From: Micractinium sp. NFX-FRZ
Lineage: Eukaryota > Chlorophyta > Trebouxiophyceae > Chlorellales > Chlorellaceae
DNA length: 64,000 nt
Assembly: GCA_029339195.1 (NCBI GenBank)
Contig: JAPTJF010000219.1
Location: 34,136-98,135, forward strand
Direction of reading: 5' to 3'
Under the pieces are notes generated by a model that was given only the letters and a program-made list of their open reading frames with translations, was not told the origin of the DNA and searched no databases. A program made the position numbers and the translations under genes. Position 1 is the stretch's first letter. Each line of letters opens with the position of its first letter. Below are positions 31,104 through 42,631 of this stretch, in pieces.

Positions 31104-34100
31104 TCACACCGCATCGTCCGGCGCCACCCGGTTGCCGCCTGGCATGCAGCTGGCAGCTGCCGTGAAGCTGTTGTCCGCGCTGCGCTGCATCGCATGTACC
31201 GCCAGGTCGGTGGACGTTGCGCTGGACCGCCCACTGGCCGTGCTGTAGCCCCCCCGTATGCTGCCGGTGCGGCTGCCCCGCAGGCTGGCCCGCATGCCGT
31301 TGATGTTGGCCTGCAGCGCATTGCCCAGCCGGTTCAGTATCCCGCCGCCGGCAGGCACCGCGCCGCTGCCGCTGTGGGCGCGCCCAGTGCCCAAGCTGGC
31401 CCCGCTGTGGTCACGCTGCGCCATCCCAGCGGGCGGCGTGCCCTGGCTGCCCGCAAACAAAGAGGCGCGGCTGCCGCTGTTGGCTGAGACCAGGCGGTCC
31501 AGCTGCAGGGAGAGACAGGGAAAGAGGGAGGGAGGGAGATGGGGCAGGGAAGTGTGTGAGATGGGCAGTACTGGGGTACGCCTGCCGCTGTTGTTCCACA
31601 ACAGGCGGTCTGGCCAAGGCATCCCGCACCGTCCCCGCTTGAAACCAACCACACGCGCATCCCCTCACTGCAGCTGGCTTGTGTTTGCCCACCTGGTGCT
31701 TGCGACGGGACGGCACGTCTAAATACACTTCACTGCTCTTGTACTCGTGTCCCCCCACCCGGCCCCTCACTCATCTGTTGCATTTCAACAACCCCACCTG
31801 GTGCTTGCGACGGGACAGTATGTCCTTGTACTTGGTCTGGAAGTCGCGCAGCCGCTTGTCCGCCTTGGCCTGAACAGGTGTTGGGAACATTGGGGTGTGA
31901 TTGAGTCTCAAGAAAACGGGGTTTACACACCGGGGGAAGCGGCAGAGGAACGAGTCACGGATGAGGCTGCCAGCCTTGCTTGCCCTGCAAGGCACAGGTG
32001 ACGGTGAAGCTTTCCGTGCGGCTCACTGACGCCCCTGCAAGCAGACGCCGCACACTGACCAGCCGAGGCTGCAGGTGTGTTGCGAAGTGCTTGCAAGCGA
32101 GTGAAGAGCATGCTGCCCCCCCTCCTCACCAGCTCCTCGTTGCGGCGGTCGGTGGTGAGGAGGTCGGGCGACCCCGGCATGCTGCCGCTCGCCAGCTCAG
32201 CACACAGTTCGTCCTGCTCAAGAGGGGGCGGGAGTTTGGGGGGAGGGGGAAGAACATGGCGCGTAGTCGGTTTGACGCCCGGGTACAAGGTTGTCCACTG
32301 CCCACTGAACGGTGGCACACATTAGTGTACCGCACCAGGTTAGCCTGTGCCGCCTACTGTGGGTCCCAATGGAGGGCAGGGGCAGTTTCCAATACGCACA
32401 AGAACACGATGCCACGGCATGAACCTGGCCGGGCCAGCAGGGCATCAGGGGCTGGAGAGCATGCATGCAGGCTGATCAGTTTGTGACACACCTGCCAAAA
32501 GTGCCGGTTGGCCATGAGGTGGTCCACGACCTCGCCCAGCTCTGGGAAGATCTTGTATACCTGCAGGTGGTTTCAAGAGCAGGCAGGGGAAGAAGTAGTG
32601 AAGTGGGCGTCAGTGGGGGGCTGGCAAGAGCAGCATGGCGTCACCGCCAGTGGGAGCGCCCCACTCGCACCCATTGTCAGCCATCAGCCAAACGCAACGT
32701 CTCCCCCCAACAAAGAAGCTCACAAACGATCAACCTGGTTGCCCGCACACCGCCGCATCCACCAAGAGCGAGAACCAACCCACAACCGACCGACCTGGGC
32801 ATAGATGGGCGCCACCACAAACTCGATAAAGTTGATTTGGCTGCCCGGCCGGCTGGTCTTGTGGCGGTCGCACATGGGGCTGCGGGCGCCCGGGGGAGGG
32901 GTGGGGCAGGAGGACACGTGGTGGCCATATGTTTGGTAATGAACATGCACCGGACATGGCAATGCTTGAGAAAGTCACGTGGTCTTGCAACGGCTGCACA
33001 TGGGCAGGCCTGCCGCACGCTCCCGGCTGACCTTGGCCTGCCCTGCCCACATTCATCTGTTTCAACCACACCCATGCTTGCAGTGAAATGTCACGCCCCG
33101 CGCCCCTCACACCCACCTGATGGGCAGCCCCGCGGCCCGCTCCCGGTCTCCCTGCTCAAAGAACTCTCCCAGCACGCGGTCAGACCACCTGCACGGCCAG
33201 GCGAAGATCAATACGTTGGGTCGCTTAAATCGTCGCTTCTTGAACGCGTTGCCCTCCAACCAGCCTCCCCCCTCGCTCGCAAGCTAGGTTGGCACTGCAG
33301 ATGCCCTTCCGCAGCACAAATGTGCTTATTGTGTGCACGGGACAGAGGACTTTGTGCTGCAGTGTGGCCGCTTGGTACTGCTCGCCACCTGCCCACCCGG
33401 CTGCCGCCAGCTGGCACGCGCTCACTCACTTTTCGGCGATGGAGGTGGGCTTGACCGGGTTGGAGATGTCGGCGCAATGCAGCAGCAGGTTGAGCAGCAG
33501 CTGGCGCTCCTCTGCGCTGTCAAACAGGCGGGGCAGGCTGTCCCTGCAGAAAGCGGAAGTACGGGGCAAGGTGTGGTGGGTTGTTGCAGCAGCAGCAGGC
33601 TGAGCAACAGCTGCAGGCAACATGCGTACTCCTTGTTGCACTTCTTCCTGCTCCTTGTTGATCCCTTTATTTAAAAAAACACCCTTGCGCGCAGCCCCTG
33701 GCACTGCGAAATGTCCTGTGGGCCCCCCCCTGGCGCAGCGCACGGTGGCGCTTACGCACCGCCTACCACCTCAGTCACACCGCCCTCCTCCCCCTTCCCC
33801 GCCCCTGCCCACCTGGGCAGCCCCTGGCGCAGCGCCCTGTGGTGTGCGTGGATGGTGGATGCGTGCAGCTCGTAAAACACCTCCAGGCGGGACACCATTG
33901 GGAAGTGGTGCACCATGTCCGTCGCCAGCACCGCGTTGATCACCGCCTTGCGCACCTGCGGCGTGTGGGGCAGAAAGGGGGACGGATGTGTGTGCTGGGG
34001 TGGCGAGAGCATGTGAAAGTGGCGCAAGTCGTATTCTGACAAATGCAGCTTTCTGAAACATCCGACAGCACTTTGTACAGGCACGGCAGAGCCAAATTGC

Positions 34101-37100
34101 GTGGACAATGGCAGCCGAGGTTACCACAGCGCGCGGCACAACAGCTGGCCCTGCCTGTGCAGGTCCCCTCCCGCACACCGCCCAGCTCAGCAACCCGCTC
34201 CATCCCACGCTCGCCATGGGCAGGGTCCCGCCTGTCACACACTCGTCACCTCACCCCACCCCGGCCCCTCCATGCACACACCCTCACGCACCTCCTTCCA
34301 CTGGGCAGGCGTCAGCCTTGCAAAGATGTTGAGGTGCGGCTTGGCCAGCATGAGGCCGTACAGGCAGGCCACGTGGCGGTTCTCCAGCACTGCACAGCGC
34401 GCACAGCATGGGGACAACAGGCATGTCAGGCTTGGCGTCACCCATGCCGACATACATACGCCGCCAGTCTGCCCGGCCCCCTCCTGCTCCCCAAATCTCA
34501 CCCAGCCACGAAGGGGACATACACGCTCTGTACCACGCCATGCACCCACCACGCACGTCCCAACCAATCCATCCCAACCCAAGCTGCCAACCTGGGGCGC
34601 GGGCAGCCACAGCCCGAGCAAGCACCCCGGCTTCTTCTTCAGAGCAGCCATTCCCGGACTCACCCGAATTGTCGTTGTATGTGGTGGCCAGAGGATCGCG
34701 CGTGTTCACCAAAAAGGCGTTGTTCAGGCCTGCAGCAGCAGAACAGCTTGTTTATGCTACGGTTACTCTCCCGGAAATGCATGAACCTGCTCCAACATTC
34801 CGACGACAAGGGAAGGGTTGTTCAGGCCTGCATGTTCAGGGTGCGGCTTTGGCAGAGGGATGCAGGGGCGGTGCCACCCCTGCGTCTTCAAATCGAGGGC
34901 GGCATCAACACGGTCACTGCGGTACCGCTGCCAGCTCAGCGCCGGCACAGCTCACCTGGGTGGTCCAGCTTGCAGGTCACGGGTGCAGCCCCTTGATTAA
35001 CTTTACCAAACTTGGATGTTCATCCTGCCATGGCACATCATGCATTCATGCCCCTCCCTCCCCACAACAGGACCCAGGTTTGTGCCCTTGCTCACCCGGG
35101 TGGTCCAGGTCGTGGCTGATGGCTGCCACCATGAGGGCAAAGCGCTCCATGTCGGACAGGGACACCTTGTGGCCCACGCGCCTGCGGGAGAAGCAAACAA
35201 GTGCATAGCATTCACTGTTGGTTGCACTTGAGGAGGGAAGGAGTGCAGCACGCAATGCCTGACAGAGACCCTGCGGTACGGTGCGTTGTCAAGCATTGCC
35301 GGCCTGTCCTCCGGCTTGGACAAACTGTTGACAAGATGTCTGAGCTCAAGGACAGTATCCCCACCCCACGCCTCCCCGCTTCAATCAACACACATCAATC
35401 AGCAGGACCCTTGTGGGTGCATGCCTCACACGCACCCCCCCTTCCCCCCCCTCTCTCACTTGATGAACATGAAGGTGGTGTGTGTGACGTCCATGCAGTG
35501 CTGGAAGTTGTGGTAGGTGACGGGGCGGTAGATGGTGGTGACCTGCGGGATGGACGGGGGGCAGGTGAGCGGGAGGCACAGGCGTGGTGTAGGGTGGGTT
35601 GATTTATGCGAAGTGAAGTGAAGGTGCAGGACAATCGCAGGGGAACAGGAGTGAACTCCTTGCATCAGCACCCCATTCACGCCTGCACCCCGAACCACAT
35701 CCCACAGGTTCAGATGACCCGCTTCAAGCACAAAGTCAGGTAGGCACCACCCCAGCGTCCACCCCTTGCAGCGGCCCAGCGCACCAACCCAGCACCTCAC
35801 CTCGTCCACAAAGGCCCACAGTGTGGCCACGTCCACAAAGCCATCGGGCTCGCCGCCCTGGTCTGGGTCGCTGTCGTCGCCGCTACAGGGAGGACGGCGG
35901 TGACATGGCGATCCAGTGCGTAAGAATCAAGGGAGCAACCCACCGCCTTGTGGCTCGGGTTGTTCAATGCATTCAATCCCCCTGGCCGAGCACACTGGCA
36001 TTGCCGCTTGCGGAGATGGGGTGGGTTGGGTGGGATTTTGGGATGACTTTCCTGCAACTGACGCAGCTTAACCAAAGCCCTTGCACCCACCCAAAGGCGC
36101 CAGCTCAACACGGCAGTCAACCACACTTGAAGCGACCCCTGAAGAGACGAAAAACAAAATTGGCATGGCGTGCACCCACCTGAAGAAGGCCAGGTCCAGC
36201 TCCAGGAACATGGCCACCATGTAGGCGGGCAGCAGGGGGCGGGGCACGCCCAGGGCGTCAAAGCTGCACACCCAAGGGGAGCAGGGTGCAAGGAGGGGCA
36301 AGGGCGACGGAAGGTTGTTAGAAAAGGGGGGACCAGGGGGCCGGTGCACTGCTTGTCCATGCAAGCTGCACCGGTACTGGAGCAAGAGAAGCAGCGCGCG
36401 TAAGCGGGAAACAGCGGGGGAGGAGGAGGCAGGGCTGGCGGGCAAGGATTGGGAACAGCGAGCAGCAAGCCACAGGCGCAGCCAACCATAGCCACCCGAG
36501 TGGTGCGCGCTTGCGGCAGTGCGCCCACCCAGCTTCCGCCCAGCTTCCCGGCAGTACCTGAAGCTGTGCAGGTAGTCGAGGTCCACCTGGGACAGCAGCT
36601 GCATCTGAGTGTCTGTCAGGCAGCTGCCGCTGTAATCCCCCCACGCTTCCACGCCCGTGCGGGCTTCGCCCCGCTGCTGCGCCTGCCCCGCCAGCGCAAG
36701 CACCATGTCAGCCACGGCGGCCGCATCTGAATCAGCAGACATCAGCTGCGTGCCAGCGGGGGTGGCGCCAGCCTGCCCCGGTTTGAGGCCCGCCGGCACC
36801 CCGCTGCCCGCGCGCCCCAGGCCGCCTGCGCCGCCGCCGCCGCCGCTGCTGGCTGCTGGGCCGCCCGCCTCGCCATGGGGCATGTGGGGCGGGGGGTGCG
36901 CATCCATCGACCCACTGGNNNNNNNNNNGGCGCCTTCTCGGCCGCCGCCGCCTGCTGCTGCTGCAGCAGCAGCTGCGGCTGCTGCATCGACTCTGACATG
37001 CGGCCCAGCCGCGACTGGCGCGGCCCCGAGGCACGCGCCGGCGCGCCTGGCGACGCCTGCCGCCCCGTCGCCACAGAGGTGCCCGGCGACGGCCCCCGGC

Positions 37101-40100
37101 CGGCGCGCAGGGCCGGCAGCGCTGCCATGGCACCCCCCTTGGGCGTGGAGCCCCCTCCGCTGGTGCTCTTGGACCCCCGCATGCGCCCGCCTCCAGGGCC
37201 GCCGCTGCCGCCGCGTGGGCCGCCGCTCACAACCTCCTCCGACCCGGGGCCAGCCACCATGGTTGCTAGCCACTCCTTGGTGGACTGGTCGGCGTGCTGC
37301 AATCAAGGGGGGGAGGGCAGGGCAGGGCGGGGCGGGGCACAGGGCCAGGGCTGTAAGAAATTTTGGTTTGGCATTGCCAGAACCCTGCAATCATACCGTG
37401 GCAATCTGCTTCACTGCCCTGATCCCCACCGCCTCCTGCAACTTCCCACTTCCCCTTTTCTTCTCCATCCTTCCCCAAACATGTCCCCTCTCATTGAGAC
37501 AGCATCTCGTCATCCACCCACCCAGCATGGTCAACCTCTTCCTTGTGTTGTTGAGATCCACCCACCCCTGCTGCAGGCCACTCTCCCCCACCACCACCTC
37601 CCTCCCCCCAAACCCCTGCCACCACACCTCCCTTCCTTCCCCCAAACCCTACCACGTCATTTCCCATTCACCGTGGCCATCTTCTTGACCGTGTTCAGCC
37701 CCACCCCTCCGGTAGAGGTGTACTGCTCCAGGATGCGTGACATTTTCTCCACGGCTGCAGGCAGCAAGGGGACACAAGAGAGGTCACGTGTACTGCAGGC
37801 GGCTGGGAGTGTGAAAGTGTACTGCTCCACAATGCCTGACAGCTTTCCCACGGCTCTCAACAGCGGGACACACCAGGGCGTTGAATAAAGGTTCTTGTTG
37901 TGTGCTTGTAACATGCGAAACATGACACAGATTGGCAGGAGCGACAGAGAGGTGCAGGTGCAGTGGCAGGCCTGGGCATGGCAGGAGGGAGGTGCTGCCG
38001 CCCCGGGCCCAACCCCAGGCCAGGCAATGCCCCACGCGAGCTTGCCCACCTGCTTCGATGGTGTGCATGTCCATGTTGTCCTCCTTCTTGCCACGCAGGC
38101 TGGTGGGGCCCCCGCTCTGGTGCGCCCCCTTCTGCCCCCCCTGCACCGGGCCGTGGGGTGTGACATGTCAGCACAACAACAAGGCTGGGCGGAGACGTTC
38201 GCCACAGTAGGTGCGCACTTTACAGCATCACAGCCGCGGCAGCTGCAACCCCCACATTGCGGCGGCCCCCGGTGCAACCCCCCTCCCCACCTCCCCCGCC
38301 TGTCAAGCCGTTCTGCATGGTGTGTGCGCCCTCACCTCTGGACCAAGCGCCGCCACCACCTGGGCTGCGTTGGTTCGGATGGTGTTGAAGATGCGGTCCA
38401 GGGGCTGGACCAGCATCTGCAGTGCGGGGCACAGCAGGCACAGCAGGGAGGTGGCGTGGTCACAGCACGGGCACAGCGGGACAAAGGAGACCGTCGGAGG
38501 TGGTCCCGGCGGGGCGCAGCATGGCACGGTGCATGATGCCCGGCGATGCGACCCAAGGATCCAGGGATTTAAGGATTCAGGGATTTGAGTGACAAAGGAT
38601 GCGACCAGCATTTGCGGTGTACTGTTGCTCCATGCGGCACAGCATGGGCAGCATGAGAAAGACCAACAGCAGCGCGCACCCAGCTGCACAGGGGCAAGGA
38701 AGGCAAACAGCCCCAAACACGGGCACACCTGGAAGATGGTCCAGTTGAGCAGCACCACGAAAGAGAGCAGCATGACGATGACCATCAGGGCCAGCAGCAT
38801 GTTGTACCGCGCCCTCAAATGGTTGGCGTGCTCCACAGTCACCGCCAGGTGCACCAGAGGCTGGGGGGACGTGCCATTCAGGGGCATGCTGCCTGGTGGC
38901 AGCGGGGGGGCTGTGCCGTGATTGAGGTCGAGCCTGCGGTGGCGGGGGGTGGGAGGGCAGGAAAATGCGGGGGTGATCAAGGCGAGGGAAGTGGTGGGCG
39001 GGGCGTTGAAGGGGGCATGCCGCCTGGTGCAGCGGCCGAGGGGCCTGAAAGAGCCCCAAACACAGCTGTCCTGTTTACACAGGAATTTACATGCGTGAAG
39101 ACCTGCCCACCTGTCTGTGCTGCGCCGCGTCCAGCCGCCGTTCAGCTCCGTCCAATCCCAGCTGCCCACGCCGGCGACGTCCAGCAGCATGGGCAGTTGC
39201 TGCATTTGGTAATGGGGGGGGGGCAGTGGGTTGTGTGAGCTGATGTGGTGGCATGGTCCGTGTCGAGGGTGGCAGAGGGTGCATCACTGCACTGTTAAAT
39301 GCATGCTTGTGCATGCAACAGGAGCTTCTTGCTCAGCATGCCTTGCCCTGCGGGGTGCCATCCTGCACAAGCTCGCACCCATCACACATGTCCATCGCCG
39401 GCCCTGGGCACCCTTCCACCCCCGCCTGCATCGCTCTTCCATGCCCCGCTTTGCCCAGCACACCTTGCCCTGCAGGGTGGTGTCTGAGAACGCCAGCATG
39501 GCGTCGATGGTGGGCTGGAGCTGCAGGGACATCGGGCAGGAGCGGGAGGGCGGACAGGTGTTCGCGGTGAGATCAGAAGGCGCCTGGGTGGCGCGTAAGC
39601 TCTGGCAGCGGGCAGTGGGTGGCCTGGGTGGGTGGCACGGGCGGGGGGTGCATGTGCGGGAGGAACCAAGGTACCACTCAACAGACAATGGCGCACCCGC
39701 GTCTGCTGCACTGTTCACACAGCGTGGCATATGCAGCTATTGCAACCCGCTGGACGTGTTATGGCAGCCCAGCTGACAAGCAGCACCGCCGCATGCCACC
39801 CAATACGCACCATGTGCAGCATCTTTACCTCCCCGGCATCCCGACCTGCACACCTTAAGCCTCCCTCCCCATCCTGCCCAGTACCCTATGCGCTGACTCA
39901 GATCCCACCCACCTCCCACCCAGCCACCCCCATCCGCATGCCCCTGCCACGCGCGCACGCACCTGCGCCGCGCTGGCCCCCGCAGCCGCTGCGGCCGCCA
40001 GGGCTGCCGCAAAGGCGTCCAGCCCCTCGCTGCCCCCGCTGTTCAGGTCTGCCCCCACCAGCAGGGAGGTGCCCACCACGGTGCCTATCACCACCAGCGC

Positions 40101-42631
40101 GACTTGCGTGGTGGTCACGACTGCAAGGAGGGAGGGGTGCGGTGACCAGGACAGGGAGCTAGGGTCAAGCAGGGGCTGGGCACTGGGCCCGGGGACAGGA
40201 CGGGAGCCAGCGCAGGACGGCAGCACCAGTGGCAGCAGTAGTGGCAGCGCCAGCAGTGGCAGCACAGCAGCAGCAGTGGCATCAGCATCAGCAGCAGCAT
40301 TAGCAGCAGTGGCAGCGCAGCAGCAGCAGTGGCATCAGCAGCAGCAGCAGCATTGGCAGCAGTGGCAGCGCAGCAGCAGCAGTGGCATCAGCAGCAGCAG
40401 CAGCATTAGCAGCAGTGGCAGCGCAGCAGCAGCAGCGCCGCCTCAGCTGCCACCTCAGCTGCCACCTCGGCTCACCCCCGATCTTCTTCCCAATGTTGCT
40501 CGGCTCCAGCTGGTCGCTCTCGTCTGCTTCCATGACTGCCGCGGCCTTGCTCTTCCGCTGCTGGTCCCACTGCAACAGGGAAGGCGGAAGCAAAACCAGT
40601 TGAAGTTCAGGCTGGCTCGACACGGTGGGAAGGGGTGCAGCCGGGATGCCGTGCAGCCGGGACGCAGTGCAGCCGGGATGCAGTGCAGGCGGCAAGGCCA
40701 GTGCAAGGTACCAGCTCCACAGTCGTCGCAGGTTTGCGCCTGCACTACGCGACGCTGCACCCACCGCGGCGCCTCAGGAGCAAGAGGACCCCACGTTCCC
40801 AACAGGCCCTGGCTCGCACCCACCCACGGTGCCACCCTGCACCCAGCATATCACTCCAACTTCACAGCACGCCAAAGGGCCAGCCTTCTTCAATCGTCTT
40901 CTACGTGTCAAGTCCACGCAGCTAATCCACCTCACCCCACACCTGCGGTGCTGGTTGCACTAGGTAAAACCACTACGAGAGCCGCCCAGCACCCACCTGC
41001 CGAATCTTCCACACCAGAATGTCCACGACGGATGCCACCCGCACGAGGCGGAGCACGCGGACGGCCCTGGCTGCGTCGCTGGTGGTGCCGTCGGCGCGCA
41101 GGCCCAGGGCATCGGTGAACCAGGTGATGGCAAAGAGCATAGAGACGTTGGACAGCACGTCAAGGGCAATGCCCAGCCACAGCACGTGAGACCTGCGCAT
41201 GGGGGTGGGACAGTGCAAAACAGTTGGGGCGTGGCAAGGAGGGGTTGGGAGGAGGTACGGGTCGCTTCTTCCCAGCGACGGCACAGTCAAAGTTTGTCGG
41301 TCGGCCCGGAGCAGGGCGAATTGCGTATCCCAGCGTCCCGGCTGCCGGCAGCAGCCACCAGATCAGAGCACCCACCTGCAGGTGACGTCAACCAGCGTCT
41401 CTGCTGCAAAGATGACCATGATGGCAATGATGATTCCATTGAGGATGTTGTTGACCGAGTCGGGGGCTGCAGGGGGTGGGGCAGATTCAATGGTGAGCGG
41501 CAGGAGCGGCCGGCAAGTGGCGGCACCTGGCGCCGCTGCTGACGGCAGCCGGGAGGACCGGGGCGGGCTGCACCCGCTGTGGCCAGTGACGACATCTCGG
41601 TATTAGAGCAGAGCGAGCAGCCGAATAGCAGGCCCACGCGGCCTGCCCTTCGCGCACCGGAGATGACGGTGGCGATATCTGGCGCGAAGACGGCGAAGAT
41701 GGTGATCAATAGGATGAAGAAGTTCCAATAGAGCGTGTCGCAGCAAGCGACGATGGCCTGCAGGCGCACGGGAGGGCGACGGCGGTGAGGTGGCGGCATG
41801 AAAATGTCGGAGCATGCCCGGCCGACTCTGCCACAGCAAGTGCCTCCCGAAGCAACAAGCTGAACACATCCTACATGCTGCCCTGCTCCAGATCACCTGC
41901 TGCCATTGCTCGGGCAGGAAGCAGCGGCGGAGGCACGGCAGGCCGCACTTGGTCTTGACCCCTTTTGCCGCCTCTGTCATGGCCGGGTCGGCCGCTATCA
42001 GGCTGTCCCGGTAGTAGCTCTCCCGAGTCACGAACGGACCCATGCCGTAGATGCTGCGGAAATAAGAGGGCGGGATTGGGGGGGAGGACAGGCAGTGGTG
42101 TAGGTGGGAGAGAGGTCGTGGGCGGGAGGGGCAGCAGCACCGGTGAGACTGGGTGAGGCGCGCTGAAGCCTGGCGGAAAGGAGCACAGCTTGCCAGCATG
42201 TGGCCAAGGTCACTTAGGAAACACGTCATGCAACACAACACAGCACAAGAGTGCAAGGTGGGTCAGCCTGCAGGCGGCACGTGGGCAGCAGGGGTGGAAC
42301 AACACGTCCTCGCTGTGCCTCACCTGCGCCGGATGCGACGGCTCGCCCGCTTCAGAAAGCTAATCTTGCTGCCCCCACCCATTGAGCTGGTGGGCCGGCT
42401 GTCCTCCTCGCCGTTGCTGTACCGCCTGTCTCCCAACGGCGCCACGGCATTCGGAGTGGAGCCCGCACTGACGAGCACCTCCACGCCACCGCCGCCGCCG
42501 CCCCCGCCGTCTCCCGCCCGCCCACTCTTCTTGCCCTCGTGCTCCCCCGGCCACTCGGGGTGCGCCGACGGCTGGCCTCGGTCGCTGCTCGACATAGAGC
42601 CCTCCCGGATTGCCCCAAGCGGGTCGTTCAT
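31104..42631 (-). CDS. Voltage-sensor-like membrane domain fused to class I cyclic-nucleotide phosphodiesterase
   Basis: Exons: 42324-42631, 41897-42053, 41658-41757, 41376-41466, 40997-41192, 40476-40569, 39963-40120, 39464-39520, 39111-39199, 38729-38933, 38336-38416, 38050-38140, 37672-37754, 36558-37296 (with a 10-N gap), 36180-36263, 35801-35882, 35460-35542, 35096-35181, 34664-34729, 34292-34389, 33813-33955, 33430-33543, 33117-33188, 32795-32879, 32492-32560, 32130-32213, 31798-31869, 31104-31502. About 1,330 residues. Four helices (about 160-280) look like S1-S4; S4 reads RAVRVLRLVRV, four Arg at every third residue. There is no S5-S6 pore. Two more helices (about 317-340, 458-482) flank a probable outside domain. 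The PDE domain (about 800-1150) has YHNFQH, HDLDHPGLNN (HDxxHxxxxN), HCADISNP and SQINFIEF with the substrate Gln. All metal ligands expected of class I are present. Predicted to hydrolyse cAMP or cGMP at a membrane; control by voltage is inference. Confidence 0.82.
31688..31711 (-). repeat. 24-base perfect echo of phosphodiesterase exon 27 end plus donor
   Basis: Identical to 31793-31816, 105 bases away. It encodes SRRKHQ followed by a GTGGG donor in both copies. Confidence 0.9.
34817..34832 (-). repeat. Echo of phosphodiesterase exon 19 start with acceptor
   Basis: The 16 bases GTTGTTCAGGCCTGCA also span the real acceptor at 34719-34734. Confidence 0.75.
34950..34969 (-). repeat. Echo of phosphodiesterase exon 18 end plus donor
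   Basis: Nearly identical to the exon 18 donor region at 35090-35109; it encodes LDHPG followed by GTGAGC. It sits in the same intron as the exon 19 echo. Confidence 0.8.
36919..36928. other. Assembly gap (10 N) inside phosphodiesterase exon 14
   Basis: Ten Ns within a coding low-complexity stretch. The open frame before the gap and the one after it do not match at the nominal length, so the true gap is not 10 bases. Confidence 0.95.
37812..37861 (-). repeat. Echo of phosphodiesterase exon 13 start
   Basis: AVGKLSGIVEQYTFT against AVEKMSRILEQYTST in the real exon. It lies 99 bases (33 codons) upstream, in frame and open to the real exon. Confidence 0.8.
39330..39357 (-). repeat. Echo of phosphodiesterase exon 8 end plus donor
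   Basis: GCATGCCTTGCCCTGCGGGGTG resembles the exon 8 donor region at 39452-39480, about 120 bases away. Confidence 0.7.
40200..40440. repeat. AGC-rich minisatellite, about 54-base unit
   Basis: Tandem copies mixing GGCAGCGCAGCAGC and GTGGCATCAGCAGC, in the intron between exons 6 and 7 of the phosphodiesterase gene. Confidence 0.85.

Follow-up and report, generated by a model that had tools for sequence, protein, structure and literature searches.

A candidate membrane phosphodiesterase with a voltage-sensor-like module and an ectodomain in the green alga Micractinium sp. NFX-FRZ

Voltage-controlled enzymes are few, and the voltage-sensing phosphatases, which are not known to have a fifth and sixth transmembrane helix (TM5 and TM6) or an ectodomain, are the known proven case. 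Here we describe a gene of the green alga Micractinium sp. NFX-FRZ, located in a stretch of 64,000 nucleotides of contig JAPTJF010000219.1 (assembly GCA_029339195.1; this whole stretch is called the window), that is predicted to join a voltage-sensor-like module to a class I cyclic-nucleotide phosphodiesterase (PDE). The catalytic domains of PDE4 and PDE9 have the fold of class I PDEs and the motifs for catalysis in common with the window protein, but these enzymes are not known to have a transmembrane voltage sensor. The Ci-VSP family, according to the available part of PMC13095418, also has a voltage sensor (S1-S4) directly joined to an enzymatic domain and lacks a pore, although the enzyme in this case is a phosphoinositide phosphatase and not a PDE. 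In protists, a voltage-sensor domain and a cyclic-nucleotide enzyme are found together in the ion-channel/adenylyl cyclases of Paramecium, Tetrahymena and Plasmodium, but these proteins have their own K+ channel pore and a cyclase (PMC10651576, available part). The choanoflagellate rhodopsin phosphodiesterases are likewise membrane sensors fused to a PDE, but what they sense is light, by a rhodopsin, and not voltage (PMC8774190, available part).

In 2025, two Phytophthora proteins were described in which a voltage-sensor part, with no homology to a pore helix, is joined to a cyclase (PMC12223298, this and what follows from the available part of the article). One of them was immunolocalised mainly to a single flagellum, with mass-spectrometry quantification giving no significant difference, and the article reports similar proteins from at least 90 organisms with flagella or cilia. 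They have an N-terminal Ion_trans part with S4, no pore helix homology, a long intervening stretch and a C-terminal cyclic-nucleotide enzyme, a layout like that predicted for the window protein, but their enzyme makes the cyclic nucleotide whereas that of the window protein would break it, in such a way that the latter looks like the degrading counterpart of the voltage-sensor/cyclases; the modules were compared by their description only. Voltage-sensor-enzyme fusions are known, but a PDE version with an ectodomain appears not to have been described. A first-pass annotation of this DNA was not aware of any voltage-sensor/PDE enzyme, and no description of such a protein was found in the open-access literature available, in part as incomplete texts, with subscription journals and preprints mostly outside the scope of the search. 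The word "phosphodiesterase" is absent from the available main text of PMC13095418, PMC10651576 and PMC3440755, which deal with voltage sensors or voltage-controlled enzymes.

We propose, at about an even balance of confidence, that the window protein is a class I cyclic-nucleotide PDE of the receptor type, bound to a membrane, in which the voltage-sensor domain would be the first input module. Anchor peptides and splice sites were used to rebuild the gene, which lies on the minus strand, in an assembly of 66 Mb and 838 contigs (G+C of the window, 65%). The model starts at an ATG at 42631 and ends at a stop at 31104, reproducing the 28 exons and the span of 31104..42631 given in the first-pass annotation, and the 27 introns are all GT-AG and in frame, with CAG as acceptor and once TAG. 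The donor after 36558 was placed by hand, the automatic choice being poor. An assembly gap of 10 N at 36919-36928 interrupts exon 14 (37296-36558), and because of this gap the protein length of around 1,327 residues is approximate and the frame across it uncertain. The features of the locus are the following:

42631..31104, minus strand: whole coding span, spliced model of 28 exons, voltage-sensor/PDE protein of about 1,327 amino acids
41897..42631, minus strand: exons 1-2, cytoplasmic tail at the N-terminus (residues 1-155), with 47/93 and 29/51 identities to P0001
41658..41757, minus strand: exon 3, S1 (hydrophobic 169-187), with D182 in VFAPDIA
41376..41466, minus strand: exon 4, S2 with F208-x-x-E211, both residues being invariant in alignment A4
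40997..41192, minus strand: exon 5, S3 with D230 and S4 with R261, R264, R267 and R270
40476..40569, minus strand: exon 6, cytoplasmic S4-TM5 linker with the PSNIGKKI motif
39963..40120, minus strand: exon 7, TM5 (321-339) and start of the ectodomain
39111..39520, minus strand: exons 8-9, ectodomain, with W-x-W and GGW elements common to P0001, P0002, P0003 and P0005
38729..38933, minus strand: exon 10, end of the ectodomain and TM6 (461-479)
37672..38416, minus strand: exons 11-13, helical linker in the cytoplasm, conserved (LVQPLDRIFNTIRTNAAQVVAALG ... TIEAAVEKMSRIL)
36558..37296, minus strand: exon 14, low-complexity linker containing the 10-N gap 36919-36928
32492..36263, minus strand: exons 15-25, class I PDE catalytic domain; Pfam PDEase_I 279 bits, PDE4 matches in the PDB with E ~4e-55
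31104..32213, minus strand: exons 26-28, C-terminal tail, ending in DDAV-stop

At least 17 distinct relatives of the protein were found in three protein searches, each of which scored only the 8,000 or so candidates with the most words in common, so that the list is a lower bound; low-complexity words may have displaced other candidates. In fifteen of these 17, a single predicted protein contains PDE sequence and, as a minimum, S4, TM5, TM6 and the linker. Part of S1-S3 is missing at the N-terminus of P0004, P0005, P0006, P0011, P0012 and P0013, P0002 and P0003 end inside the PDE, P0007 is a fragment of 371 residues, and P0014, with 468 residues, ends after TM6. The closest relative found, P0001, comes from the chlorellacean green alga Micractinium tetrahymenae and is annotated as a single protein. 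Its 1,285 residues align to the model over the whole length (65% identical across residues 90-560), and in this pairwise alignment 26 of the 27 exon junctions have no gap within 4 columns. At the other end of the list, P0016 belongs to the dinoflagellate Effrenium voratum, and P0015 and P0017 are similar to it; the module matched these three with E values of 5.5e-3 (P0016), 0.14 (P0017) and 2.6e-7 (P0015). In the one of these protein searches that had the module alignment as query, only P0003 and a fragment were returned, and no relatives were found in viral contigs queried with P0010.

These relatives bear on whether two neighbouring genes, one for a membrane protein and another for a PDE, were wrongly joined in the model. 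The gene model is a prediction from genomic sequence, the join crosses the low-complexity exon with the 10-N gap, and in four Euplotes subgroups PDEase_I and Ion_trans genes are reported as always neighbours (PMC8670190, available part), which, as a speculation, may represent a voltage-sensor/PDE fusion that was split or mis-annotated. However, P0001 is one protein and aligns across the join, the exons on either side of which are conserved, and another 14 relatives are single proteins as well, all of them, like P0001, gene predictions. For these reasons a single gene is favoured, as the first reading of the locus had it, and a wrong join is considered very improbable.

The enzymatic part was also confirmed as a complete class I PDE domain. 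Pfam PDEase_I was matched over its full profile (1-238 of 238) with 279.1 bits versus a cut-off of 24.8 (E 4.2e-83), and HNFQH, HDLDH (HDLDHPGLNN), HCADISN and SQINFIEF, the last with the invariant Gln, align to PDE4A, the metal-site His/Asp motifs (HDxxH and HCADISN among them) and the Gln being intact. Among the best 60 of 151 matches to solved structures, PDE4 (PDE4A) was the best, with E ~4e-55, and PDE9A gave 7e-53. The PDE part of the model predicted for P0010 also found PDE4, with E ~4e-19 among the matches listed. The protein is thus predicted to be a class I PDE hydrolysing cyclic AMP (cAMP) or cyclic GMP (cGMP), the sequence and the PDE4/PDE9 matches not settling which nucleotide. 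Two other identities were discarded at E<=1: a voltage-sensing phosphatase, as Pfam gave PDEase_I and no phosphatase, and a voltage-sensor/cyclase of the oomycete/alveolate type, as no Guanylate_cyc was present in the window protein. At the very end of the protein (positions 31104-31118), a C-terminal Val, preceded at a distance of two or three residues by Asp or Glu, was found in 11 of 11 sequences (the window protein, P0001, P0004-P0006 and P0008-P0013), the tails ahead of it being otherwise poorly conserved. P0015-P0017 do not have this ending, and P0002, P0003, P0007 and P0014 are incomplete at the C-terminus. The acidic-Val ending looks like a conserved C-terminal anchoring motif, presumably of the PDZ-ligand kind.

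The N-terminal membrane part was studied by a hydropathy scan, which placed S1 at residues 169-187, S2 at 196-214, S3 at 223-241 and S4 at 262-280. The S4 of the window protein (DAARAVRVLRLVRVASVVD) has Arg at 261, 264, 267 and 270, that is, at every third residue, S2 contains FAAE (residues 208-211, with F208 and E211) and S3 contains D230, in such a way that the four S4 arginines, the Glu in S2 and the Asp in S3 reported earlier were all found. Residues 169-280 have the four hydrophobic helices, the S2 F-x-x-E, the S3 Asp and the S4 Arg of a voltage sensor. The S2 F-x-x-E, which we take to be the form of the gating-charge transfer centre, aligns with that of Kv1.2. When residues 160-284 of the window protein were shuffled, Lys/Arg runs of at least four with i+3 spacing appeared in 69 of 100,000 cases, and the run of six of P0010 in 2 of 100,000 when its residues 1-147 were treated in the same way. 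Counting the window protein, F-x-x-E/D was present in S2 of all 15 covering sequences (Asp in two of them), the S3 Asp in all 16, and an S4 run of 4-6 Arg/Lys with i+3 spacing in 16 of 17, P0015 having 3. Alignment A4, with 7 of the 18 sequences from green algae to P0015-P0017, has 22 invariant columns, including F208, E211, D230, R261 and R264.

Pfam Ion_trans gave only 13.4 bits with the window protein, under its cut-off of 25, and passed the cut-off in P0010, P0008 and P0014 among the eight relatives scanned, with the S1-S4 part alone matched (profile 4-115 of 241 in P0010). A profile of the module found seven PDB sequences at E<=1, all seven of them Kv channels and over S2-S4, the best one with the FxxE and the RLVR stretch aligned. 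A plain PDB sequence search with S1-S4 produced one unrelated match (E 0.57), and no Pfam match was obtained with the N-terminal half as a roughly concatenated single peptide. The best structural matches of the predicted N-terminal bundle of a relative, in a search of listed families only, were channel voltage sensors. This comparison, which the first-pass annotation had proposed as a check, mildly favours a voltage-sensor fold, although the match itself is weak. The S4 of P0016 is of the type RAARAAKVGARAGRLSRVLRFLR and that of P0017 is similar; an Asp in S1 is common to these two sequences (FMPDL, FLPDI) and the window protein (FAPDI). This likeness suggests that the module is old. An alternative would be that S1-S4 conducts protons in the manner of Hv1, with the PDE responding to local pH or merely riding along. 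The signature of the Hv1 S4 is RxWRxxR, and the S4 of the window protein (RAVRVLRLVR) does not have it, so we regard proton conduction as very improbable.

In contrast to the four helices counted in the first-pass annotation, two more strongly hydrophobic helices were found after S4 in the hydropathy scan, at residues 321-339 (TM5) and 461-479 (TM6). They are separated by a domain of 121 residues in the window protein and by 100-137 residues in the 17 sequences, with ends set by hand. A further segment at residues 349-367 was rejected as a membrane helix, its hydropathy (1.53) being barely over the threshold but due to an alanine-rich run. N-glycosylation sequons are present in the TM5-TM6 domain of 9 of 17 sequences, and two models predict it as a folded alpha/beta unit, with predicted local distance difference test (pLDDT) values per block of 76-93 in P0014, except for a loop at 42-62, and of 67-85 in P0010, except for one block at 54. 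The order of its elements may be reminiscent of a small Cache/PAS-like unit. TM6 is followed by a cytoplasmic linker (residues 483-580) that is among the best-conserved parts of the protein, with 79 of 98 residues identical to P0001 and 47 of 91 to P0010. Motifs of protist cyclases may be similar to PSNIGKK-TM5 and TIEAAVEKMSRIL.

Six hydrophobic helices in the order S1-S4 plus two could also be read as an ion channel with an attached PDE, in which TM5 and TM6 would be the S5 and S6 of a pore, as in the Paramecium-type channel/adenylyl cyclases, and such channel/cyclase fusions have been described (PMC10651576, available part). However, the stretch between TM5 and TM6 is long and folded in the two models, no TxGYG-like or potassium-channel filter motif was found there in the 17 sequences, and the Ion_trans matches end ahead of the pore part. 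We hold a channel to be quite improbable. The earlier statement that no pore helices follow S4 is therefore upheld for the pore, as far as the filter motif goes, and fails for the helices. The proposal of a voltage-sensor-like domain fused to a PDE, and not of a channel, finds support in both the gene model and the relatives, but it was incomplete, overlooking TM5, TM6, the ectodomain and the linker. The TM5-TM6 domain would face the outside and the PDE the cytoplasm. The succession of S4, linker, TM5, domain, TM6 and conserved cytoplasmic stretch is the layout of a membrane receptor and makes two inputs likely, so the sequence points to a PDE of the receptor type with six helices and without a pore that can be recognised, to which voltage and a signal from outside the cell would be the two possible inputs. 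Given these two additional helices, the ectodomain and the conserved linker, voltage would be at most one of the two inputs.

The second input could even be the only one. In a ligand-receptor PDE the ectodomain would sense a chemical, TM5 and TM6 would relay the signal, and S1-S4 would be vestigial or structural, serving to anchor or to pair. In the comparison with P0010, S1-S4 is less conserved than either the TM5-ectodomain-TM6 part or the cytoplasmic linker, the predicted folding and the sequons of the ectodomain fit a receptor, and the S4 of the window protein has 4 charges in register versus the run of six Arg/Lys found in 10 of 17 relatives. A vestigial bundle, however, should lose the S2 Phe and Glu, the S3 Asp and the S4 Arg, yet these, with two of the S4 Arg, are among the only 22 invariant columns of the seven aligned sequences, and we consider such a receptor possible but rather unlikely.

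For the voltage-sensing PDE that we prefer, the following mechanism can be proposed. The protein would work as a dimer in the cell membrane or in that of an organelle. A change in membrane potential would move S4, and this movement, transmitted first by the S4-TM5 linker and then by the TM5/TM6 pair, would twist the helical linker and set the activity of the PDE, while the ectodomain would act as a second input, chemical or mechanical, tuning the set point. The outcome would be a voltage-dependent decay of cAMP or cGMP, the sequence giving no direction for the effect of depolarisation. Whether the PDE is really under voltage control is, judged from its sequence, evenly balanced in our estimation.

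Other genes for cyclic nucleotides were sought in the same genome. A search with the module gave six matches, all of them inside the window gene; this genome search was carried out by short exons, with many false negatives. A second PDE gene was located at C217:91134-92726 (L019), its matched exons being 42-49% identical, and no voltage-sensor exon was found in the 8,858 bases around it, some 6.1 kb of which are upstream, up to the end of the contig. Weaker PDE-like matches were detected in contigs C341 (E 0.029) and C603 (E 0.68). Cyclic-nucleotide-binding domains gave 12 matches, six of them over the cut-off, and because of these domains a cyclic-nucleotide messenger pathway is plausible in the host. 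Guanylate_cyc had no match in the genome, a weak negative, as the like search with PF00233 missed the PDE gene of the window itself.

Regarding the introns of the gene, several of those in 31104-42631 contain decayed copies of their own exon edge, 76-91% identical in the examples 31688-31719 versus 31793-31824, 37817-37855 versus 37718-37756, 39329-39357 versus 39451-39479, and 34950-34986 versus 35090-35126. For 8 of 54 exon edges the own intron was a better match than all 26 other introns, with 2 expected (binomial P 8e-4), and in 7 of the 8 cases the copy is found at a distance of 94-140 bases, which suggests intron growth by tandem duplication across splice sites. The intron after the exon of the S4-TM5 linker carries a long GCA-rich repeat array (40212-40435) with a period of 53 and GCA as inner unit.

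Tentatively, and with less confidence than in the protein itself, the window gene may represent an undescribed ancient family of voltage-gated cyclic-nucleotide PDEs with ectodomain input, present in green algae and dinoflagellates and paired with the opposing, recently described voltage-sensor/cyclases, so that at the membrane the cyclases would write and the PDEs erase cAMP or cGMP. With a conserved voltage-sensor/PDE, a single protein would lead from membrane potential to cyclic-nucleotide decay, of relevance in cells where light, touch or ion stress alter the membrane potential. Such an enzyme would be the opposite of the voltage-sensor/cyclases of zoospore flagella, and a natural start for an electrically controlled PDE tool.
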